IMG/VR virus record: IMGVR_UViG_3300006917_000089
Coordinates: 1 to 31,778 of that record
Origin: a virus
DNA: 31,778 nt
Strand: one strand, 5' to 3'
The first letter of the stretch is position 1. The number at the start of each line of letters is the position of its first letter. The translations under genes and the position numbers were made by a program. Below the pieces are notes generated by a model. It was given only the letters and a program-made list of their open reading frames with translations. It was not told the origin of the DNA and ran no database searches. This document shows positions 2,581 through 26,722 of the stretch, piece after piece.

Positions 2581-2888
2581 GGCGCTTCGCGAAATGCGTG
2601 CGGTTGTCACGGTCGCCGCAGACGAGCGGTGATAGCGACGGGTATTTCGAGGACCTGTCGCCGCCTGACTGGTGGTGTGCGATGCAGGCGCAAGGGCCAA
2701 CCGGAGAAGGCCGCGGGATGGAGTTCCTGATTACGGGTCGCTGGCATCCACAGATCACGATGGACACGCGGATTGTCTACAGCGATCCGGTGCTGAAGCG
2801 CGACCGGCAATTCTTCGTGCGGTCGTATCAGAACGTCGATGAACGCAACAAGGAACTGCAGTTGATTTGCGAGGAAGTGACGCCGTGA
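2571..2888 (+). CDS. Head closure / head-tail adaptor protein (SPP1 gp16-like)
   Basis: It encodes 105 residues and overlaps the connector gene by 10 bp. The sequence follows the phage head-tail joining pattern: a short RVGRFAKCVRLSR start, a loop with a WWCAM segment, a central strand EFLITGRWHPQITMDTRIVY, and a C-terminal strand FFVRSYQNVDERNKELQLIC. In this family the protein caps the connector ring and docks the tail. The order connector, closure, gp10-like protein is the standard siphovirus order. Confidence 0.83.
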   Translation: MRVGRFAKCVRLSRSPQTSGDSDGYFEDLSPPDWWCAMQAQGPTGEGRGMEFLITGRWHPQITMDTRIVYSDPVLKRDRQFFVRSYQNVDERNKELQLICEEVTP

Positions 2889-3304
2889 GCGTGCGGCTAA
2901 CGTTCAACGGACTCGACCAGTTTCGGCGCGCATTGCAGCAAGCGCCAGAGGAACTGCGTCGAGAGGCTGACGAGGTGATTCGCGAGACGGCTGCGGACGC
3001 GGCACGGTCAGTTGAGTCAGGCTATCCAGAAGGTCCGACGGGCAACCTCAAGCGCGGCGTGACGATGCAGCACAACTCGTCCAAGTTCGGCACGGTGGGC
3101 GTGGTGCGGAGTCGGGCGAAGCACGCCAGTATCTTTGAGCGCGGCACGGTGCAGAGGCAGACGCGACGCGGTGCGAATCGTGGGTCGATGCCGCAACCGC
3201 CAGAAGCGCAGCGCGCGATTCCGAAGTTCGTCAGGGCGAGACAGCGCATGATGTCGTCACTCATTGAGATTGTGCGGCAAGCCGGGTTCCAGGTGGACGC
3301 ATGA
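2885..3304 (+). CDS. HK97 gp10-like tail completion protein
   Basis: It encodes 139 residues from a GTG at 2885 that overlaps the previous stop as GTGA; the in-frame ATG at 2867 lies inside the previous gene. The N-terminus (LTFNGLDQFRRALQQAPEEL) and the central segment with GYPEGPTGNLKRG, then HASIFERGTVQRQTR, match the HK97 gp10 family, which has a conserved Y-P-TG-L(K/R)-S/G core and an (A/F)-E-GT motif. Members act at the head-tail joint or as tail terminators. In related phages the tail terminator and tail tube follow directly; here an unrelated three-gene cassette is interposed. Confidence 0.87.
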   Translation: MSVRLTFNGLDQFRRALQQAPEELRREADEVIRETAADAARSVESGYPEGPTGNLKRGVTMQHNSSKFGTVGVVRSRAKHASIFERGTVQRQTRRGANRGSMPQPPEAQRAIPKFVRARQRMMSSLIEIVRQAGFQVDA

Positions 3305-3855
3305 CGCCGTTCATCACGTTCTATACGCCGACGTATCGCCGGCCGCAAGCGCTCGCGCGCAACCTTGCCAGTGTGCAGGCGCAGACATGCGTGCGGGACA
3401 TCGAGCAGATCGTGATCCCGGATCATGTCGGGCTGGGCGTCGGCGGCATGTTCTCGCGCGTGCCCGACTATGCCGGCGCGGTGCATGGGCGGTATGTCGC
3501 ATTTCTCTGCGATGACGATGTGCTGGCTGGGCCGTCGGTGGTCGCAGAACTGCAGGGCGCGGCAGAAGCCGAAGGCTATCCAGAACTACTGGTTGTCCAG
3601 ACGAACAAGGGCGGCGCGGTGTGGCCGTCTGGTGACGCCTGGCCGCCTCGCATGGGCAGCATCGACCTGAATTGTGCAGTCGTCCGCCGAGATGTGTGGC
3701 TGGCGCATGTGCAGCATTACGGGCATCGGTATGAGGGCGACTACGATTTCATGCACGCGCTGTGGGTGTCGGGCGTCTATGCGGTGCCGGTAGACCTGCT
3801 GTTGACGATTGGCGCGGTGAGTCGCGGTGTCGCGGAGGTGGCGTGTGTGGATTGA
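3301..3855 (+). CDS. GT-A (family 2-like) glycosyltransferase, short form
   Basis: This encodes 184 residues and overlaps the gp10-like stop by ATGA. It starts with PFITFYTPTYRRPQALARNL, the classic family-2 opening (strand, T-P-T-R, then a helix), continues with VGGMFSRVPDYAGAVHGRY, and has the metal/nucleotide-sugar motif at residues 71-73 (DDD in CDDDVLAG). A later GDYDFMHALW provides acidic residues in the place of the catalytic base. No membrane segment is seen, so it should be cytosolic. It forms a tight cassette with the radical SAM and GT-B genes that follow. Donor and acceptor are unknown; a virion protein, host envelope or nucleic acid are possible acceptors. Confidence 0.8.
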   Translation: MTPFITFYTPTYRRPQALARNLASVQAQTCVRDIEQIVIPDHVGLGVGGMFSRVPDYAGAVHGRYVAFLCDDDVLAGPSVVAELQGAAEAEGYPELLVVQTNKGGAVWPSGDAWPPRMGSIDLNCAVVRRDVWLAHVQHYGHRYEGDYDFMHALWVSGVYAVPVDLLLTIGAVSRGVAEVACVD

Positions 3856-4906
3856 TCCGCGCGCCAAGACGCTGCGGCATATCGACCGGATTGCCGCATG
3901 GGACCGCGGCGAGTCGCCCGCGCCTGTGACGGTCGAATGGGATCTTTCGAATCGGTGCGTCTTGGGGTGCCAGGATTGCCACTTCGCGCACACGCACATC
4001 AAAGGGCCGTGGGCGGTTCGGGCGCGGCGGTTGCCGATGGCGTTTGAGTCTACGGGGGATCTCGCAGATGTCGCAGTGGTGCGGCGGACGCTGGATGAGT
4101 TCTCGACGTGCGGCGTGCGGTCGATTGTCTGGAGCGGTGGCGGGGAGCCAACGACTCATCCGCATTGGCTCGCGTGTGTGGAACATGCCGCGGCGGTTGG
4201 GCTCGAGCAGGGGATGTATACCTGCGGAGGGCTGCTGACGACAGAGACAGGGCGACGGCTCGCGCAGTTGGCATCATGGGTGGTCGTCTCGCTCGATGCG
4301 CCGGACGGGGCATCCTACGCGGCGGAAAAGGGTGTGCCGGCGGCACGGTTTGAGGCGGCGTGCGACGGACTGCGGTCGCTGGTTGGGCATAGGGCTGTGG
4401 TCGGGGCGTCGTTTCTTCTGCACGGCGAGAACGTGGAGCGCGCTCCGGAGATGCTGATGCTTGGGCGTCGGCTCGGGGCGACGTATACGACGTTTCGGCC
4501 GGCTGTGCGGACAGCTGCGGATCATCCGTCGGTATGCGTGGATGAGCGCTCGTGGATTTGGACTGAGCTTGACGACCTGGCGCTGATCGCCGGGGAGCCG
4601 GATGTCGAGATGGATCTGGCTCGGTTTGCGAACTATGCCGCGTGGCGTGAGCACGGGTATACGGACTGCCACGGCATTCAACTGCACACGACGATCACGC
4701 CTGACGGGCGGGTCTGGGTCTGTCCGCAACGGCGCGGGGTCACGGCGATCGGGGATGTGTCGCGCGAGTCGTTCGCGGCTGTCTGGGCGCGGCATCCGCG
4801 CACGTATCGCGTGGATGATGGGTGCCGGGCGCTGTGTCGGCTACATCCGGTCAATGAGACGCTGGCCGGTGTGCGAGCGCATCGTGTGCATGAGGCGTTT
4901 GTATGA
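3845..4906 (+). CDS. Radical SAM enzyme with C-terminal SPASM/twitch-like cysteines
   Basis: I prefer the GTG at 3845, which has GGAGG at 3834-3838 six bases upstream; a GTG at 3827 would add six residues. The 353-residue protein has the radical SAM cluster CX3CX2C at C38, C42 and C45 (NRCVLGCQDCHFAH), the SAM-binding GGGEP at 98-102, and a beta-alpha pattern through the first 230 residues. The C-terminus carries four more cysteines at about 275, 293, 327 and 331, around ITPDGRVWVCPQ and GCRALCR. This resembles the twitch/SPASM domains that hold an auxiliary Fe-S cluster, usually in enzymes that modify peptides or carbohydrates. It overlaps the GT-A gene by 11 bp and the GT-B gene by 4 bp. 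The substrate cannot be read from the sequence. Confidence 0.87.
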   Translation: MWIDPRAKTLRHIDRIAAWDRGESPAPVTVEWDLSNRCVLGCQDCHFAHTHIKGPWAVRARRLPMAFESTGDLADVAVVRRTLDEFSTCGVRSIVWSGGGEPTTHPHWLACVEHAAAVGLEQGMYTCGGLLTTETGRRLAQLASWVVVSLDAPDGASYAAEKGVPAARFEAACDGLRSLVGHRAVVGASFLLHGENVERAPEMLMLGRRLGATYTTFRPAVRTAADHPSVCVDERSWIWTELDDLALIAGEPDVEMDLARFANYAAWREHGYTDCHGIQLHTTITPDGRVWVCPQRRGVTAIGDVSRESFAAVWARHPRTYRVDDGCRALCRLHPVNETLAGVRAHRVHEAFV

Positions 4907-5997
4907 AGGTGTTACTCGCGCATCCGGGCGCGTCCTGGTCTACCGCGGACGTATTCGACGGACTCAACTACGGACTGCAGCAACTCGGCGTTGAAGTGCA
5001 GCACTATCGGCTTGATACGCGGCTCGAAGCGAGCGCGAATGCGCTACATGCGCTGTGGCGCAAACGGAAGAAGGCACAACCAGATCTGCCGAAGCCGAAC
5101 AACGTCGATATTGTTTATCACGCTGGCGTCGGTATTGTGGAAGCGGCGCTGCGCTGGCAGCCGGATGTCGTGCTGATCGTGTCGGCGATGTTCCTGCATC
5201 CGGATGTCGTGCTGATGCTGAAGCGGGCCCGGCAACGGGTGTGTGTGCTGTTTACCGAATCGCCGTATGACCACGCCGAGGAGCTTAAGATCGCGGCGAT
5301 GGTCGATGGTTGTTGGACGAACGAGCGCGCGTGCCTCCCCGACTTCCGCGCGGTGAACCCGCGGAGCGGATATCTCGCGCATGGGTGGCATCCGCTCAAG
5401 CACGGGCCGCATCCATTGGACCTAGGCGTCGGGGTGCGGGCGCATGATGTCGTGTTTGTCGGGTCGTTCTTCCCTGAGCGGGTTGAGTTTTTCAACGCGA
5501 TCGACTGGACAGGGATTGACCTGGGCATCTACGGCACATGGAAAGGCTTGGGCCTGAAGAAGCAAGTTCGCGCGTGCTGCTACGGCGACCAGATTGAGAA
5601 CGTCTACGCGAGCGCGTTGTATCGTGCGGCGAAGATCGGGCTCAATCTCTATCGGACGCGTGGGAGTAAGCGTCTACCGTTGACGCACGCGGACGGCCGG
5701 CGACTGGTGCCGGAGTCGTTGAGTCCGCGCGCGTATGAGCTTGCGGCGTGTGGTGCGTTCTCGATCTCAGAGGCTCGCGCCGAGGTGTCGGAAGTGTTCG
5801 GCGAGCGTGTGCCGACGTTCTCGACGGCGGCGGAGGCGTCCGTCTTAATGCGGACGTGGTTACAGGATGACTCGGGCCGTCGTCAGATGGCGGCGGAATT
5901 GCCGGCCTGTGTGGCCGAGGCGTCGTGGGTGGAGCGGGCCAAAACCGTGGCCGGCGACCTCCAACGGCTCATGATGACTCAGCCAATCGCCGCCTAG
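4903..5997 (+). CDS. GT-B glycosyltransferase, CgeB-like
   Basis: This encodes 364 residues and starts by ATGA overlap with the radical SAM gene. The N-terminal Rossmann half begins MKVLLAHPGASWSTADVFDGL and includes QPDVVLIVSAMFLHPDVV and the FTESPYD segment. The C-terminal donor-binding half includes the VFVGSFFPERVEFF strand-turn and a late stretch (SLSPRAYELAACGAFSISEAR) that is very close to the CgeB/Glyco_trans_1-type E-rich donor site. Length and layout fit that family. It ends 23 bp before the tail tube gene. It probably works with the upstream GT-A and radical SAM enzymes on one glycan or glycosylated product. Confidence 0.82.
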   Translation: MKVLLAHPGASWSTADVFDGLNYGLQQLGVEVQHYRLDTRLEASANALHALWRKRKKAQPDLPKPNNVDIVYHAGVGIVEAALRWQPDVVLIVSAMFLHPDVVLMLKRARQRVCVLFTESPYDHAEELKIAAMVDGCWTNERACLPDFRAVNPRSGYLAHGWHPLKHGPHPLDLGVGVRAHDVVFVGSFFPERVEFFNAIDWTGIDLGIYGTWKGLGLKKQVRACCYGDQIENVYASALYRAAKIGLNLYRTRGSKRLPLTHADGRRLVPESLSPRAYELAACGAFSISEARAEVSEVFGERVPTFSTAAEASVLMRTWLQDDSGRRQMAAELPACVAEASWVERAKTVAGDLQRLMMTQPIAA

Positions 5998-6020: not shown

Positions 6021-6416
6021 ATGGCAGCATACGCAGGACGTAAGGGCGTCATTTACATGAGCACGACAGGCTCGGGCACTGCCTCGAGTGTGATCAAGCT
6101 CAATCAGTGGACGATCAACCGCACGACCGACAAGATCGAAGTGACGGCGTTCGGTGACTCAAACAAGACCTACGTGCAGGGTCTGCCTGACCTGCAGGGC
6201 ACATTCTCCGGGTTCTGGGATGAGACGGAAGCGAAGCCGTTTACGGGCGCGACCTCGAGCGATGGCGTGAAGCTCTACCTCTACCCGTCGAGCGATGCGC
6301 CGACGAAGTATTGGTATGGGCCGGCGTGGCTCGACCTCTCGATGGACACGGGCGTGTCGGCAGCGGTCACCATTTCCGGGGCGTTCGCGGCCAATGGTTC
6401 GTGGAGCTGGAACTAA
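6021..6416 (+). CDS. Major tail tube protein
   Basis: It encodes 131 residues from an ATG preceded by a GGAG ribosome binding site. The sequence has the tail-tube pattern of short strands: AYAGRKGVIYMSTTGSG, IKLNQWTINRTTDKIEVTAFGD, then GLPDLQGTFSGFWDE, a Tyr-rich LYLYPSSDAPTKYWYGPAWL, and a final VTISGAFAANGSWSW. The N-terminal W-T-I-x-R-x-D-x-I-E-V-T-x-F-G-D run is characteristic of phage tube subunits. Hexamers stack around the tape measure protein to form the tube. The next genes (chaperone, tape measure) support this. Confidence 0.85.
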   Translation: MAAYAGRKGVIYMSTTGSGTASSVIKLNQWTINRTTDKIEVTAFGDSNKTYVQGLPDLQGTFSGFWDETEAKPFTGATSSDGVKLYLYPSSDAPTKYWYGPAWLDLSMDTGVSAAVTISGAFAANGSWSWN

Positions 6417-16952: not shown

Positions 16953-17161
16953 TGCAGCGACAACTACACGATGCATTGACGCTCAAAGCCGCGGAGTGTC
17001 TGCGGGCACTGGATGCTTTCCGCTACGTCGCGATGATGGCGGATACGACTGAAGATGTGGCCGAGATCATCGGCACGATTCAACTGATCGAGGCGCGAGC
17101 GCAGCAGGCGCGAGCGGCGGCAACAGCCTGGATTCGGGCAGAGATGAAGGTGAGCGCATGA
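16952..17161 (+). CDS. Short helical hypothetical protein
   Basis: It encodes 69 residues from the ATG in TGATG (a GTG one codon earlier is also in frame). It is strongly helical and Ala-rich: LHDALTLKAAECLRALDAFR, then DTTEDVAEIIGTIQLIEARA and a basic end. No motif identifies it. It sits directly upstream of the annealase gene and overlaps it by ATGA, so it is coexpressed with the recombination genes. Confidence 0.6.
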   Translation: MQRQLHDALTLKAAECLRALDAFRYVAMMADTTEDVAEIIGTIQLIEARAQQARAAATAWIRAEMKVSA

Positions 17162-17778
17162 CCGTTTACGAAGCAATCGCTGCAGTGTCGGCAGACCTGG
17201 CCAAGACAGGTATCGCCAAGACACGCGCGAATCAGTCGCAGCATTACCAGTTCCGGGGCATCGATGAAGTGCTGAACGCGCTGGCGCCGTTGCTCGCGAA
17301 GCACGGGCTAGTGATTGTGCCGCGCATGATCAGTCGCAGCGTCACGGAGCACGTATCGAAGGGTGGCGGCGTGCTGTTCAAGGTGGTCGTAGAAGCGGAG
17401 TTCGATTTCGTGTCTGCGTCTCACGCCGATCGCAGTATGCACATCGCGCGCACGTTTGGTGAAGCGATGGACTCGGCCGACAAGGCGACAAACAAGGCGA
17501 TGAGCGCAGCCTACAAATACGCCGCGTTCCTGACGTTCTGTATCCCGCTCGAAGGCATGGCGCAAGATGCGGACGCGGAGACTCCGGAAGTCGTGGCGAA
17601 AGCGCCGGCAGGATACGACGACTGGCTGGCGGATCTCGAGTCGCTGGCCGGCGAAGGCGTAGACGCACTCAAGGCGGCATGGGACGGTTCGAAGATCGAC
17701 TACCGTAAGTGGCTGGTCGAGACAGACCGCGCGAAGTGGGACGCGATGAAGAAGCGCGCGGCGCAGGTGTCGGCATGA
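17158..17778 (+). CDS. Erf-family single-strand annealing protein
   Basis: It encodes 206 residues. The ERF signature is clear: YQFRGIDEVLNALAPLLAKH followed by GLVIVP, a beta-hairpin with GGGVLFKVVVEAEFDFVSAS, and DSADKATNKAMSAAYKYA, which is the conserved (K/R)-A-x-S-x-A-x-K-Y core. The C-terminal 60 residues are a less conserved acidic/Trp-rich tail. Erf-type proteins form rings that anneal complementary single strands, promoting circularisation or recombination. It is followed by a nucleotidyltransferase and an exonuclease, the usual partner of an annealase. Confidence 0.9.
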   Translation: MTVYEAIAAVSADLAKTGIAKTRANQSQHYQFRGIDEVLNALAPLLAKHGLVIVPRMISRSVTEHVSKGGGVLFKVVVEAEFDFVSASHADRSMHIARTFGEAMDSADKATNKAMSAAYKYAAFLTFCIPLEGMAQDADAETPEVVAKAPAGYDDWLADLESLAGEGVDALKAAWDGSKIDYRKWLVETDRAKWDAMKKRAAQVSA

Positions 17779-18335
17779 GTGCTCCGATGTCAAGACTGAG
17801 AGACGCGCACCAAGCTTTCTCCGGCCTACTAAGCGGTATGGGACGTGTCGTGATCGCTGGCGGCGCGGTTCGAGACGCTTTGATGTGGCATAACGATCCG
17901 AAGGACTACGACGTATTCGTTCTAGGTCAATCGGTAGATGCTCAGACATTGAAGCAGATGGCAGATCTCGTTACGCCTCACTTCGATGGAGTGCCACCGG
18001 CGTTAGAGTTTCATACGAGCGAGCCTTTTCTGGCGTGTTCTGTTATGTGGAATGGCACGATGGTGCAAGTGTTGGCGTCTGAGTTCACGACAGAGGACGA
18101 ACTGATCGATTCGTTCGACTGGCATGTGTCGCGTTTCTCGTTCGATGGTGAGCGAGTTACGACGCCAGAGGACATTGCGACGATCGGTCGCAACAAGCCG
18201 CTGCTGCTGCGAAAGGTCACGTTTCCACTGTCAACGCTGCGGCGAGGGTTTCGATTTAGCGAGCGGTTTGGGATGGAATTTCGTCACGAGGACGTCATGG
18301 CTCTATGCCGGCAAGTCGTAGAGTCGAAGTCATGA
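17775..18335 (+). CDS. Nucleotidyltransferase, CCA-adding/poly(A) polymerase head-domain-like
   Basis: It encodes 186 residues from the ATG overlapping the Erf stop; an upstream in-frame ATG at 17709 lies inside the Erf gene. The head motif VIAGGAVRDALMWHNDPKDY followed by DVFVLG has the GG at 29-30, RD at 33-34 and the metal-binding D44-x-D46, as in class II CCA-adding and poly(A) polymerases. The usual RNA-binding second half is missing, since the family is normally over 350 residues. This is therefore a short, head-domain-only nucleotidyltransferase of unknown substrate. It lies between two recombination genes. Confidence 0.8.
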   Translation: MSAPMSRLRDAHQAFSGLLSGMGRVVIAGGAVRDALMWHNDPKDYDVFVLGQSVDAQTLKQMADLVTPHFDGVPPALEFHTSEPFLACSVMWNGTMVQVLASEFTTEDELIDSFDWHVSRFSFDGERVTTPEDIATIGRNKPLLLRKVTFPLSTLRRGFRFSERFGMEFRHEDVMALCRQVVESKS

Positions 18336-19009
18336 GGCCATTCGACATTCTCGACATCGATCAGCGCTCAGACGCCTGGCTGGCCGCTCGCTGCGGTCGG
18401 CTGACTGGCTCAGTGGCGCACGAAGCCTTCGCCAAGACGAAGAGCGGCTGGGCGGCATCACGGCGCAATCTGATCATGCGGCTGGTGCTCGAGCGCATCG
18501 CCGGAAAGCCGCAAGGCTCTGACTTCGTGTCGCCAGCGATGCAGGCCGGCATCGACCGGGAACCGCTCGCTATTGCGGCGTATGAGGCTGCGACTGGCGA
18601 GATGGTGCAGCGGTGCGGGTTCGTCGCTCATCGCGTGCTGATGGCTGGGTGCTCACCGGACGGCTATCTGGGCGACTTCGAGACGCTGCTCTCGATCAAG
18701 TGCCGGCAGGCGTTCGCTCATTTCGAGTTCGTCCGCAAGGGCACGATTCCAGTAGCGTCGCTCACGCAGATGCAGCACGAGTGCTGGGTGACTGGCGCGC
18801 GTCGCGCGGTCTACTGCTCGTATAATCCGGACTTCCCTGAGCGGCTACAGCTGGTGCATACCGTCGTGACGTTCGACGATGATCAGATGGCCGACTACAA
18901 CTCGGCGGCGCTGACATTCCTCGGCGAAGTAGACCGCGAATACGACGCCATGATGACACTGTGCGATCTGGCTGGGCGACTCGCCGCGGCCGTTCTGGAG
19001 GCGAAATGA
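18332..19009 (+). CDS. YqaJ / lambda-exonuclease-like recombination nuclease
   Basis: It encodes 225 residues from the ATG at 18332 (ATGA overlap). Family features in order: LDIDQRSDAWLAARCGRLTG, residues about 7-26, the start of the YqaJ fold; GIDREPLAIAAYEAATG with catalytic-type E77; GCSPDGYLGDFETLLSIKCR with D110 and K123; and SLTQMQHECWVTGARRAVY with the conserved Q-x-Q. The usual (E/D)-x-K is S121-I-K123 here, so the acidic residue is replaced or taken over by a neighbour such as E117. It should be the 5'-3' exonuclease partner of the Erf annealase. Confidence 0.87.
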   Translation: MRPFDILDIDQRSDAWLAARCGRLTGSVAHEAFAKTKSGWAASRRNLIMRLVLERIAGKPQGSDFVSPAMQAGIDREPLAIAAYEAATGEMVQRCGFVAHRVLMAGCSPDGYLGDFETLLSIKCRQAFAHFEFVRKGTIPVASLTQMQHECWVTGARRAVYCSYNPDFPERLQLVHTVVTFDDDQMADYNSAALTFLGEVDREYDAMMTLCDLAGRLAAAVLEAK

Positions 19010-19200
19010 AGAGACTGAAACGATTGACGCGCCACGAAGAAATCATCAGGGCTATCGATGTGGCAAGCCGCGCGATCGACCGTGTTTATAGACACCCTGC
19101 CGCAACGGTGGCAGACAAGCGGGCCATTTTGGGCGTGCTCTTCGCGCTACACATCGATGGCGGCGCAGGTCTGCAACTCGAGCGACGCGAGGTGAAGTAA
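19006..19200 (+). CDS. Short basic hypothetical protein in the recombination operon
   Basis: It encodes 64 residues, overlapping the nuclease gene by ATGA and the next gene by TAATG. The sequence is helical and basic (MKRLKRLTRHEEIIRAIDVA, then SRAIDRVYRHPAATVADKR). No motif for an enzyme or metal site. The double overlap supports a real, co-translated gene. Function unknown. Confidence 0.6.
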   Translation: MKRLKRLTRHEEIIRAIDVASRAIDRVYRHPAATVADKRAILGVLFALHIDGGAGLQLERREVK

Positions 19201-19463
19201 TGAGCGACAAGATCTACGCACCAATCAACGTGAAGGCGCGCGATGGGCGCTTTGGGCAAGAGTTCCGCATCTCGTTCAACGTCGAGAAAATGCTGGCCTT
19301 CATCAAGCAGCATCAGACCGCGAAGGGCTACGTCAATCTGTCGATGACGGCGCGGCGCGAAGTCTCGAAGTTCGGCGAGACTCACAGCGTCGTGGTTGAC
19401 ACCTGGGAGCCGAATCAATCGCGGCGTGCTGAGCCGGTCAGCGGAGACGATGTGCCGTGGTAG
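19200..19463 (+). CDS. Putative single-stranded DNA-binding protein
   Basis: It encodes 87 residues. A compact beta-alpha-beta body (KIYAPINVKARDGRFGQEFR, then ISFNVEKMLAFIKQHQTAKG and GYVNLSMTARREVSKFGETH) ends in an acidic tip, SGDDVPW, resembling the DDxPF tail by which SSB proteins recruit partners. The final residue is Trp instead of the usual Phe. Together with its place directly after the annealase/exonuclease block, this suggests an SSB-like protein, but it is smaller than a normal OB-fold SSB. Tail similarity is seen; function is inferred. Confidence 0.55.
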   Translation: MSDKIYAPINVKARDGRFGQEFRISFNVEKMLAFIKQHQTAKGYVNLSMTARREVSKFGETHSVVVDTWEPNQSRRAEPVSGDDVPW

Positions 19464-19885
19464 CAGTGCCGGTGTTCCACGGGCGCGTCTCGACTGATGC
19501 GGCGCTACGGCTCGAGCCGTCAGAGGCATCGAAGCGTAAGGCGTGGCTCTCGCATCTGGTCGGCCGCGACGTGGAGATTACGATCCGCGACAAGCGGCAG
19601 CGGCGCAGCATCGACCAAAACAATTGGGTCTGGGGCATTGCGTATCCGGTCATCGCTGAGGCGCTCGGCTATGACGAACACGAGCACGAGCAGCTGCACT
19701 ACGCGCTGCTCGGCGAATGCTACGGCACAGCCTACGATCAGCGGTTCGGGCGCGAACTGCCGCGCGTGAGTTCATCGAAGCTGAACACGAAGCAGTTCTC
19801 GGAATACATGGAATGGTTGGTCCGATGGGCGGCGACGGAGCACGGCATTGTCGTGCCGCTGCCTGGTGAAAGCGAGGCGGCATGA
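19457..19885 (+). CDS. NinB-like recombination protein
   Basis: It encodes 142 residues from a GTG overlapping the previous stop by 7 bp. The N-terminal part (FHGRVSTDAALRLEPSEASK) leads to RDKRQRRSIDQNNWVWGIAY, reminiscent of the R-x-x-x-Q-N-x-x-x-W motif of NinB/Orf recombination mediators, then HEQLHYALLGECYGTAYD and a C-terminal helix with FSEYMEWLVRWAATEHG. NinB-type proteins load recombinase on SSB-coated DNA and often sit next to SSB, as here. Length (about 140) agrees with the family. Confidence 0.6.
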   Translation: MVAVPVFHGRVSTDAALRLEPSEASKRKAWLSHLVGRDVEITIRDKRQRRSIDQNNWVWGIAYPVIAEALGYDEHEHEQLHYALLGECYGTAYDQRFGRELPRVSSSKLNTKQFSEYMEWLVRWAATEHGIVVPLPGESEAA

Positions 19886-19998
19886 TCTGCCGCAACTGCG
19901 AGAAGGCAATCAGGCACATGCTGAACAAGCGGCGGGTCTACTGCTCTCGACGCTGCCGCTCACAGTATGCGGCGCTGGGGCGAAAGGTGACGCGATGA
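19882..19998 (+). CDS. 38-residue zinc-finger microprotein
   Basis: A tiny gene linked on both sides by ATGA overlaps. It reads MICRNCEKAIRHMLNKRRVY then CSRRCRSQYAALGRKVTR. The CxxC and CxxxC pairs spaced by about 17 residues suit one zinc ion, and the protein is strongly basic, so nucleic-acid binding is plausible. Too short for family assignment. Confidence 0.55.
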   Translation: MICRNCEKAIRHMLNKRRVYCSRRCRSQYAALGRKVTR

Positions 19999-20645
19999 AG
20001 CCGTATTACGAGCACGGTGGCATCACGATCTATCACGGTGACTGCCGCGATGTGATCGCAGAGTGGTGCCCGATACACGGGATGCCGCCGTTGTTTGACC
20101 TCATGTTGACGGACCCGCCATACGGTCACGGCGAGAAGTGGTCCGGCGGGACGTGGGCGTCGAATCCGATCTACGCGCGGGCCTTCCAGTGGGATGCCCA
20201 GCCGGCGAGTCCAGACACCATCGCGACAGTGTTACGGTTGGCTCATGCGTCGATCATCTGGGGTGGCAACTACTATCGTATGGAGCCGTCACGGTGTTGG
20301 TTGGCATGGGTGAAAACGTCCCGCATGCCGACGATGGCGGATTTCGAGCTAGCGTGGACCGACATCGATAAGCCCAGCAAGCTCTACATGGCGAATCGAA
20401 ATGCAGACGGACGCCGAGAGCATCCGACACAAAAGCCGGTCGATCTGATGAAGTGGTGTATCGCGCAAGTGCCTGGTGTTCGAACGATAGTTGATCCGTT
20501 TATGGGGTCAGGGACAACGCTACGGGCCGCGAAAGATAGCGGTCTATCGGCTATAGGGATCGACCGTGATGAGCACTACTGCGAGATAGCCGCGCGGCGG
20601 CTACAGCAAGAGACACTAGCGTTAGATGGTGAGGTGACGCTGTGA
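19995..20645 (+). CDS. DNA methyltransferase (N4-cytosine/N6-adenine type)
   Basis: It encodes 216 residues from the ATG in ATGA overlap. Motif IV DPPY lies at residues 40-43 (DLMLTDPPYGHG) and motif I FMGSGTT near 169-175 (IVDPFMGSGTTLRAA). This IV-before-I order is that of the beta class. The middle contains HPTQKPVDLMKWCI, the common linker motif before motif I. No restriction enzyme is beside it, so it is an orphan methyltransferase that may protect phage DNA from host restriction. Methylated base and site cannot be read from sequence. Confidence 0.9.
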   Translation: MKPYYEHGGITIYHGDCRDVIAEWCPIHGMPPLFDLMLTDPPYGHGEKWSGGTWASNPIYARAFQWDAQPASPDTIATVLRLAHASIIWGGNYYRMEPSRCWLAWVKTSRMPTMADFELAWTDIDKPSKLYMANRNADGRREHPTQKPVDLMKWCIAQVPGVRTIVDPFMGSGTTLRAAKDSGLSAIGIDRDEHYCEIAARRLQQETLALDGEVTL

Positions 20646-22062: not shown

Positions 22063-22250
22063 TGGCGAATCAACTGGAGCAGCTGAGCAAGCGGATCACA
22101 GACAAGATTTTAGCTAGGCTACACGACTTTGACACGGTGAGCGTGTCGCTGATTGCTCTCGATGAGGACGACTCAGAGGCATTACGGCGCACCATCGCAA
22201 ACGCCATCGAAGATGAGCTCTACTCAGAGTCGCAGCGAGGCGACGAGTAA
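22062..22250 (+). CDS. Short hypothetical protein upstream of the initiator
   Basis: It encodes 62 residues with TAATG overlaps on both sides. The sequence is mostly helical (LEQLSKRITDKILARLHDFD, then ALDEDDSEALRRTIANAIED) and acidic at the end. It could assist the replication initiator that follows, but nothing in the sequence shows how. Function unknown. Confidence 0.55.
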   Translation: MANQLEQLSKRITDKILARLHDFDTVSVSLIALDEDDSEALRRTIANAIEDELYSESQRGDE

Positions 22251-23023
22251 TGGCCAGGACACGTCTGCTCTCGCCTGGATTCTTCCTAAACGAGGCGCTG
22301 TGCGACCTCCACCCGCTCACCCGAATCCTGTTTCAGGGGTTGTGGGTGCTCGCGGATCGCGAAGGCAGGCTCAAGGATCGCCCTAGGCGGATCAAGCACG
22401 AGGTTCTGCCGTATGACGACCATGACGCGGACAGGGCTCTGTACGACCTAGGTTGTGCCGGGTTCGTGACTCGCTATAGCGTAAATGGCGAGAACTACAT
22501 TCAAATCAACAACTTCCAGAAATATCAGAAGCCTCATCAACGTGAGGCTGAGTCGTCTATTCCGGCTCCTGATGCGGTGGGTAGTGTAAGGCACGACCTA
22601 GGTAGTGCTCAGCCCGGTAAAGGCAATGTCGAGCCATCGCCAAGGTGTTCGGTTTCTGTTTCTGTTTCTGATCCTGTTTCTGTTTCTGATCGGGACGAAC
22701 AGCGGCCCGCGCTGGCGCGAGCGAAGCCACGGACAGCTGGAGGTTCAGGCAAGAACTTCGGCCGAGTGTTCCTGCATCGGTGGCAGATCGACCAATTGAT
22801 CGACCGTCTCGGGGAATTGTCTGACACATTTCTGCTCGACGAATGGGTCGATGGACTGAACGAGAAGCTCGCCGGCAAGGCACTCCCTCGAGATATCTGG
22901 CCGTGGGTGCAGGACGAATTCCAAGCCGAGATTACGCGGCGCAGCTTGCCTACTGCTAAGGCTGCGAACGGCGTGGATCTCGAGCTTGTCAAGTCGCTGA
23001 TTGAACGGGACGGCCGGCCATGA
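22250..23023 (+). CDS. Replication initiator / replisome organiser with N-terminal winged helix
   Basis: It encodes 257 residues. The first 90 (LSPGFFLNEALCDLHPLTRI, then GLWVLADREGRLKDRPRRIK and YIQINNFQKYQKPHQRE) match the winged-helix N-terminus common to phage DnaD/O-like initiators, which bind the origin. Residues about 105-165 are a low-complexity linker (SVSVSVSD, PVSVSD) encoded by tandem repeats. A C-terminal helical domain from about 165 (KNFGRVFLHRWQIDQLIDRL) ends the protein, and may contact helicase or its loader. It has ATGA overlap with the next gene. Like lambda O, the gene may contain its own origin (see repeats). Confidence 0.72.
   Translation: MARTRLLSPGFFLNEALCDLHPLTRILFQGLWVLADREGRLKDRPRRIKHEVLPYDDHDADRALYDLGCAGFVTRYSVNGENYIQINNFQKYQKPHQREAESSIPAPDAVGSVRHDLGSAQPGKGNVEPSPRCSVSVSVSDPVSVSDRDEQRPALARAKPRTAGGSGKNFGRVFLHRWQIDQLIDRLGELSDTFLLDEWVDGLNEKLAGKALPRDIWPWVQDEFQAEITRRSLPTAKAANGVDLELVKSLIERDGRP
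22376..22608 (+). repeat. CCTAGG-centred dyad repeats, candidate initiator-binding sites
   Basis: Within the initiator gene, GATC-NN-CCTAGG-NN-GATC occurs at 22376-22393. GTACG-ACCTAGGT-TGTGC at 22441-22458 and GCACG-ACCTAGGT-AGTGC at 22591-22608 share a 15-of-16 identical core (22443-22458 and 22593-22608). All three are 18-bp dyads around the same palindrome. They could be initiator binding sites of an origin. CCTAGG also occurs elsewhere at a level chance could explain, so only the clustering and the repeated core count. Confidence 0.4.
22652..22693 (+). repeat. Tandem GTTTCT / 18-bp direct repeats inside the initiator gene
   Basis: GTTTCT units run from 22652 to 22687, interrupted once by GATCCT, and an exact 18-bp unit starting CTGTTTCTG occurs back to back at 22656-22673 and 22674-22691. 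They encode the Ser-Val-rich linker. The lower GC and tandem order resemble the iterons inside lambda gene O, so this is a candidate origin or DNA-unwinding element. Confidence 0.55.
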
Positions 23024-25695: not shown

Positions 25696-26040
25696 ATGAC
25701 GGAAATCGACCTCGGGGCGTCCTCGCACACGCCGCAGTCGTCTGAAGACGGCGCGTGGAAGACGTGGACGCTTGGCGCAATTCTTACCGCGCTGCTGGGT
25801 TTAGCTGGCACATGGGGCGCATCGGTGCAAGAGCGCATTGTGTCAGCGGAGCGTGATAGCCAGTTGACGCGCGAGCGGCTATCGAACATTGAAGCGCGGG
25901 CCGACAGTATCCAGCGTCAGATTGACGCAAACGTGATCGACCTCAAGGAAGCCGTTCGGCGTATTGATAACAAACTCGACCGCATTATTGAAGGTGATCG
26001 GAATGGTTACGTTAACGGCGCGCGGCGCTTTGATCGCTAA
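25696..26040 (+). CDS. Membrane-anchored coiled-coil protein (possible lysis accessory)
   Basis: It encodes 114 residues. After an acidic 20-residue start comes a membrane helix at about 22-43 (WTLGAILTALLGLAGTWGAS), then a long coiled coil (RIVSAERDSQLTRERLSNIE, QRQIDANVIDLKEAVRRIDN). This N-terminal-anchor plus coiled-coil layout resembles phage holin-associated or spanin-like proteins, and the location after the promoter gap would suit a lysis cassette. No endolysin is visible nearby, so the role is uncertain. Its end overlaps the next gene by 38 bp. Confidence 0.62.
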   Translation: MTEIDLGASSHTPQSSEDGAWKTWTLGAILTALLGLAGTWGASVQERIVSAERDSQLTRERLSNIEARADSIQRQIDANVIDLKEAVRRIDNKLDRIIEGDRNGYVNGARRFDR

Positions 26041-26722
26041 ATACCTCGGGCTTCTGCTGTGTTTGTCGTTGCCCATGTCTGCCGCGGCGGGGCCTGTGAA
26101 CCTCATCACGAACAGCGACTTTTCAGGGGGCTACGTCGGCTTCACGACGGATTACATCTTTACGGCCGATGGCGGCGCAGACGATGACCTGTGGGATCCT
26201 GGCGTGTTTGGTATTGATGACACGGCTGCGGGCCGGCATCCGTATTGGGTGACGACTGGCGACCACACATCAGGCTCTGGTGCCATGATGCTCGTGAACG
26301 GACAAACGGCGTCGGCGTCTACCGTCTGGAAGCAGTCGGTGTCTGTGGCGCCCGATACGACATACTTCTTCGAGGCGTGGGCGATGGATCTGTGCTGCAA
26401 TGCGCTCATGCCGGTGCCGTTTGAGCCGCCCAGCTTGTCGTTCTGGATTAATGGGTTTCAGGTCGGGTCGTCGCTGACGGGTTCGACTGGCGCATGGTCC
26501 GGACTGTCGAATACCTGGAACTCGGCGAGTGCTTCATTGGCGACGCTAGAGATTCGGAATGGTTCGACCATCTACTCAGGGAACGATTTTGCGCTTGATG
26601 ACTTATTCCTCGGCACTGAGTCCAGCTTAAACCCGGCTCCTGAGCCGGCATCGATGCTGTTGCTCGGCACCGGGCTGATTGGCGTGGCGCGTGCGGCTCG
26701 AGCTCGGCGGAGGCGTGCGTAA
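26003..26722 (+). CDS. Secreted PEP-CTERM protein with carbohydrate-binding-like domain
   Basis: The ATG at 26003 has AAGG about 8 bases upstream and gives 239 residues; a TTG at 25964 is the only earlier start. A signal peptide (basic start, hydrophobic YLGLLLCLSLPMSA, cleavage after AAA about residue 29) is followed by NLITNSDFSGGYVGF and a beta-sandwich typical of carbohydrate-binding jelly rolls (VWKQSVSVAPDTTYFFEAWA, then SLSFWINGFQVGSSL). The C-terminus is a textbook PEP-CTERM signal: PEP at about 213-215, a hydrophobic helix (MLLLGTGLIGVA), and an Arg cluster (RARRRR). Host exosortase should sort it at the inner membrane. Such proteins are host surface/EPS proteins, so a phage copy is unexpected. 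Confidence 0.88.
   Translation: MVTLTARGALIAKYLGLLLCLSLPMSAAAGPVNLITNSDFSGGYVGFTTDYIFTADGGADDDLWDPGVFGIDDTAAGRHPYWVTTGDHTSGSGAMMLVNGQTASASTVWKQSVSVAPDTTYFFEAWAMDLCCNALMPVPFEPPSLSFWINGFQVGSSLTGSTGAWSGLSNTWNSASASLATLEIRNGSTIYSGNDFALDDLFLGTESSLNPAPEPASMLLLGTGLIGVARAARARRRRA

Follow-up and report, generated by a model that had tools for sequence, protein, structure and literature searches.

Why does a phage carry two glycosyltransferase (GT) genes and a radical S-adenosylmethionine (radical SAM) gene among the genes that build its tail? The question is raised by the IMG/VR virus record IMGVR_UViG_3300006917_000089, of which positions 1-31,778 (31,778 nucleotides, hereafter the window) were analyzed. 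The gap from a gp10-like gene to the tail-tube gene is filled by three intact overlapping genes (Table 1). Their products are a small putative GT-A-type glycosyltransferase (GTA), a radical SAM protein that has an auxiliary Fe-S domain (rSAM), and a CgeB-like glycosyltransferase of the GT-B type (GTB). An original prediction had named these gene types in this place, and open reading frames, Pfam and PHROG matches, and conserved residues confirmed it. The prediction had also described the trio as one inserted cassette that modifies either a virion protein or the host surface. Our preferred reading, to which we give a probability of roughly 0.55, is a gene module for virion glycosylation whose specific target is the tail tube; for this module we infer the acceptor, the residue, the sugar, the rSAM reaction, and the benefit.

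Relatives of the locus were gathered from IMG/VR by searches with rSAM, GTB, GTA, and the tube protein, and their genes were then mapped. The gene order was connector, head closure, gp10-like gene, a variable position (the slot), GTB, tube, p88, p133, and tape measure. GTB stood directly before the tube gene in nearly all loci, typically 5 to 30 bases apart. The linkage was seen both ways, as loci selected by GTB had an adjoining tube gene and loci selected by the tube had an adjoining GTB. The only real exception among the tube-selected loci was L125, a contig that begins inside the tube gene; three others marked as having none do carry GTB, overlapping an over-long tube open reading frame. 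In a wider tube scan, GTB accompanied all 25 tubes scoring 150 bits or higher and all 3 tubes with about 140 bits. No tube with a score of 120 bits or below had GTB upstream, and among the closest of these tubes most were preceded by a tail terminator. DSL-LC06 and Roseobacter phage CRP-811 had no GT before the tube and showed a terminator region directly upstream instead. The rule therefore applies to tubes for which upstream DNA is present and whose score against this tube family is 140 bits or higher. Across this lineage, GTB was the invariant partner of the tail tube. Because no loss of GTB was seen despite rapid change in the slot, the comparison argues that GTB would matter to the tube itself.

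The genes p88 and p133 likewise stay beside the tube in most relatives. This speaks for a different acceptor, in which case the module would glycosylate another virion protein of the operon (p88, a neck protein, or a tail-tip protein) and the gene order would reflect co-expression with tail genes. Second copies of GTB, found after the capsid gene (L070:1793-2902) and directly before the gp10-like gene (L010:1-816), show linkage to other structural genes and serve perhaps a second acceptor. We judge this explanation unlikely, since the presence of GTB divides exactly by tube similarity and GTB keeps its place directly before the tube.

For the tube as the proposed acceptor, 100 tubes accompanied by GTB were compared with 44 tubes without it. 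Ser or Thr was found in tubes with and without GTB, respectively, at S14 in 83% and 2%, at T16 in 89% and 2%, at T36 in 93% and 0%, at S79 in 95% and 27% (Ser alone, 95% and 14%), and at T95 in 90% and 9%. By this comparison, S79, the S14-T16 loop, T36, and T95 are the best candidates for glycosylation sites on the tube.

In contrast to the constancy of GTB beside the tube, the slot varied. It held GTA and rSAM, other GT2 families, methyltransferases (TylF and Methyltransf_11/24/25), or a B12-type radical SAM enzyme, which by family assignment are gene kinds expected for glycan elaboration. In other relatives, it was occupied by the tail terminator PF11367, with or without an accompanying methyltransferase. 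In one relative (L023:2149-5799), the slot is taken up by a radical SAM gene of the B12-binding kind along with three GT2 genes, which puts another type of radical chemistry at this position. On the GTB tree, the 15 carriers of rSAM were scattered and at least 10 state changes were counted, an approximate number given that a third of the inner forks of this FastTree tree were weak. GTA was present in 44 of 44 rSAM loci, a count to which one contig can contribute several loci, and two loci had a GTA match but lacked rSAM. Because GTA was found in all rSAM loci and the carriers were scattered on the GTB tree, the GTA-rSAM pair is, on these comparisons, a unit that moves in front of a fixed GTB-tube core. 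Correlation of gene distances was uninformative as to whether GTA and rSAM have co-evolved more tightly with each other than with GTB (r of 0.58 versus 0.48 to 0.64).

The complete trio was found in identical order in about 20 further IMG/VR contigs; therefore, the arrangement is not due to chance. The search for the trio beside gp10 and tail-tube genes, which the original prediction had proposed, thus gave a positive result. The claim of a single inserted block stood in part: the order of the trio recurs, but GTB goes with the tube and GTA and rSAM are variable. The trio as an inseparable unit was ruled out, as GTB occurs without GTA and rSAM in most relatives. In a further five loci (L071, L083, L059, L087, and L047), the terminator is in the slot and a GT2 gene of the same kind lies further upstream of the gp10-like gene, which is possibly a second glycan slot.

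The place had been described as one normally reserved for the tail terminator, and PF11367 does sit there in the relatives that have one. No terminator of the PF11367 type was detected in window positions 1-31778, though the phage is siphovirus-like, and none was detected in the trio phages save one match elsewhere in the L017 contig. Because such tails need a terminator, that of the trio phages has probably diverged beyond recognition or moved. A strict exclusion between terminator and GT-A in the slot was rejected; the exclusion was strong and not absolute (29 loci with the terminator only, 33 with the GT only, 3 with both, and 5 with neither).

The structure model of GTB (35 sequences; predicted local distance difference test [pLDDT], 94) was closest in fold to BshA (Z 26.9, 3.2 Å over 321 residues). 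According to this model, GTB has the GT-B fold and belongs to the retaining GT4 type. The glutamates of its EX7E motif are E271 and E279, of which E279 is invariant and E271 is present in at least 90% of the alignment; the E-x7-E pattern, as searched, was matched by 94 of 101 GTB relatives. A PDB sequence search with GTB found nothing, and its matches came from the fold search alone. No relatives of GTB or GTA were found at an E value of 1e-3 among 50,697 phage records. For GTA, Pfam gave only a weak Glycos_transf_2 match (0.008), and its similarity to GT2 enzymes was weak and N-terminal; the invariance of its aspartates (Table 1) was seen in an 11-row alignment.

The fold search with GTB also matched T4 AGT (Z 21.9), and GTs that decorate DNA are known from phages (Pyle 2024, as cited by PMC12619734). 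Both points would fit a cassette whose GTs and radical SAM enzyme hypermodify phage DNA bases. We consider this highly improbable, as the cassette sits in the head-tail operon and is tied to the tube. The candidate was set aside when the window and 22 long relatives, many of which are fragmentary records, showed neither TET/JBP over the cut-off nor a thymidylate-synthase-type hydroxymethylase (PF00303).

Distant cellular relatives of GTB sit, by inspection, in polysaccharide-type clusters. Phage GTs that alter the host O-antigen are well known, and enzymes of the CgeB-like and GT2 kinds are a typical feature of loci for surface polysaccharides. The enzymes could accordingly remodel a host surface glycan, bringing about seroconversion or excluding superinfection, with the late operon as no more than their carrier. 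This is distinctly unlikely in our estimation. The slot showed no flippase, membrane GT, or polymerase, expression together with the late tail genes would come late for an exclusion function, and the universal linkage to one tail-tube lineage would be left unexplained. Between the virion protein and the host surface, both named in the original prediction, the GTB-tube linkage favors the virion protein, here the tail tube.

The radical SAM enzyme was identified by Pfam matches to Radical_SAM (PF04055, 7e-11, above the cut-off) and SPASM (PF13186, 6e-6; 26.9 bits versus a cut-off of 21.5). Its CX3CX2C motif (C44, C48, and C51) and its fold also place it in the radical SAM superfamily. The C-terminal cysteines are arranged as C281-X17-C299 and C333-X3-C337, and these four together with the three motif cysteines were invariant in 15 of 15 alignment rows, while the remaining cysteines varied. 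The enzyme belongs to the SPASM/twitch group. Because it has four invariant C-terminal cysteines and not the full seven-cysteine SPASM arrangement, the alignment suggests that it carries one auxiliary cluster. The AlphaFold model (15 sequences; pLDDT, 81; under 50 at residues 43-50 and 58-68 of the modeled chain) had DesII and BlsE as its top-ranked fold matches (Z 23.3 each), followed by SkfB (21.8), SuiB (20.3), viperins (about 19 to 20), and BtrN (15.5). A PDB sequence profile search named PqqE and BlsE first, and the NCBIfam models of BlsE and DesII scored far under their cut-offs. The auxiliary-cluster domain expected by the original prediction was therefore recovered in both profile and cysteines, on a DesII/BlsE-like fold, and its view of the enzymes as intact rather than degenerate held, with catalytic and cluster residues kept in the relatives.

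Relatives of rSAM in other phages also lie near glycan genes. The podophage MW202801 encodes one (27% identity, 97% coverage) after its capsid gene, in a cluster with GT2, PhyH, methyltransferase, NodB-like deacetylase, and GT genes. In Synechococcus phage S9220M01, the relative adjoins heptose genes, a methyltransferase, and a GT. On one metagenome-assembled genome (MAG) contig, a DegT/DnrJ sugar aminotransferase gene is immediately before GTB and the tube. Because of the constant pairing with GTA, the glycan clusters of the phage relatives, this MAG contig, and the closest folds being DesII and BlsE, a sugar rather than a peptide is favored as the predicted substrate of rSAM. A peptide substrate would mean that rSAM modifies a tail peptide in the manner of ribosomally synthesized and post-translationally modified peptides (RiPPs), for example by Cα epimerization or a cross-link, and that the GTs act separately. 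SPASM-domain enzymes are commonly peptide maturases, and the RiPP maturases SkfB and SuiB are near in fold, such that the lead of the sugar enzymes is small. We nevertheless regard this as improbable, because rSAM always occurs with GTA and is exchanged for GT2 enzymes and methyltransferases, its phage relatives are in glycan clusters, and DesII and BlsE, among its best fold matches, have sugar nucleotides as substrates.

On the reading that the module glycosylates the tail tube, GTB would be made just before the tube subunit in one operon and would prime the glycan by transferring a sugar from a nucleotide sugar to Ser or Thr of the tube. The slot before GTB would supply exchangeable elaboration enzymes. 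In this phage, GTA would extend the glycan by a further sugar, and the 5'-deoxyadenosyl radical of rSAM would epimerize, dehydrate, or oxidize a sugar carbon, at the stage of the nucleotide sugar or of the glycan already attached, with the auxiliary Fe-S cluster as an electron sink or substrate anchor. Epimerization, dehydration, and oxidation are all within known radical SAM sugar chemistry. A swap of the slot would alter the outer chemistry of the tail and leave tube and GTB untouched, presumably evading something that recognizes tails. A fuller picture is that of a lineage with obligatory tail-tube glycosylation, an inseparable GT-tube pair, and a modular slot including a glycan-editing rSAM, which would yield a radical-edited virion glycan; this we hold tentatively, at somewhat less than even odds.

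Several observations weigh against tube glycosylation. The tubes with GTB behave as one lineage and those without look like a sister lineage, thereby giving one contrast and not many independent ones, and the Ser/Thr differences may be plain divergence. Among tubes with GTB, site 79 is D or A in 5%, and site 14 is without Ser or Thr in 17%. The p88 gene, directly after the tube, is also co-conserved and could encode the acceptor. SPASM-group radical SAM enzymes act mostly on peptides, and the fold scores of SkfB and SuiB were barely lower than those of the sugar enzymes. In addition, a nucleotide-sugar source is not encoded near the cassette; the host must therefore supply the nucleotide sugar.

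Virion glycosylation is already known in phages. Mycobacteriophage GTs glycosylate capsid and tail tube (Freeman 2023, via PMC12363180 and PMC12619734). As described there for Che8 gp110, Corndog gp38, and Myrna, the GTs are likewise phage encoded and the acceptors are capsid and tail-tube proteins. Unlike in those accounts, GTB is locked to the tube gene throughout a lineage, behind an exchangeable slot that may contain a radical SAM gene; the Che8 and Corndog GTs are set apart from GTB and GTA by their descriptions and not by direct sequence comparison. The MW202801 island shares a homologous SPASM radical SAM gene beside GTs within structural genes, but it adjoins the capsid gene and not the tail tube, and no homology of its GTs to GTA or GTB was detected in a single-sequence comparison. 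DesII, BlsE, and BtrN share the fold of rSAM at only 13 to 17% identity and belong to antibiotic pathways, not to phages. BshA, MshA, PglA, and CgeB-like PF13524 proteins share the fold and EX7E motif of GTB at 12 to 16% identity, whereas a virion-protein acceptor is proposed here. No phage system with this trio was described in the phage records and literature searched, in agreement with the original prediction. What is new is the lineage-wide lock of one GT to one tail-tube family, the exchangeable slot, and the radical SAM gene in it.

If the proposed function is correct, tail glycosylation is a fixed feature with exchangeable chemistry in an uncultured group of soil and water phages that occurs in many metagenomes, and the virus's own glycan is the target of a radical SAM enzyme. 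A protein, an enzyme, and a short list of residues are named for testing. It would also raise the question of which selection pressures in soil and water lead phages to vary their tail sugars.

The layout of the genes is given in Table 1. The gp10-like gene and GTA, as well as rSAM and GTB, overlap as ATGA, which suggests coupled translation at both junctions, as far as the sequence indicates. GTA and rSAM overlap by 11 to 29 bases depending on the choice of rSAM start, the alternative being GTG at 3845. The tube gene has a purine-rich start region of its own.

Table 1. Genes of the cassette and its borders, with positions in the window
Feature	Position	Strand	Evidence
gp10-like gene (neck / tail completion); borders the variable slot on its upstream side	2867..3304	+	PF04883 1.5e-4; phrog_5 1.1e-14
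GTA, small putative GT-A-type glycosyltransferase, 184 aa	3301..3855	+	Weak PF00535; PglI (9jma) profile match 1.5e-5; D41 and DDD 71-73 invariant
rSAM, radical SAM with auxiliary Fe-S domain, 359 aa	3827..4906	+	PF04055, PF13186; model; 7 invariant Cys
GTB, CgeB-like GT-B, GT4 (retaining) fold, 364 aa	4903..5997	+	Glyco_trans_1_2/CgeB-type (PF13524) 6e-16; model; EX7E
Major tail (tail tube) protein, proposed acceptor	6021..6416	+	phrog_1407 6e-13

Elsewhere in the window, positions 25964-26722 (+) encode a predicted secreted protein with a C-terminal PEP-CTERM signal (PF07589 over the cut-off), the sole case among 23 related contigs. It suggests an exosortase host (Gram-negative and forming extracellular polymeric substances) and a phage protein whose destination is the host envelope. 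GTB and the tube were found on one MAG contig labeled Propionibacteriaceae, a label that clashes with this hint and may be a binning error. No literature on CgeB with phage tails or on PEP-CTERM in phage genomes was found. Positions 17158-20645 hold a block of an ERF-family recombinase, a RecE/YqaJ exonuclease, and an N6/N4 DNA methylase, and positions 22250-23023 hold a replication initiator. Another GT and radical SAM pair was seen in a human gut phage contig (L019:5059-6939), in which a radical SAM gene has a GT-A-like and a ParB-like gene as neighbors, ahead of the terminase genes.

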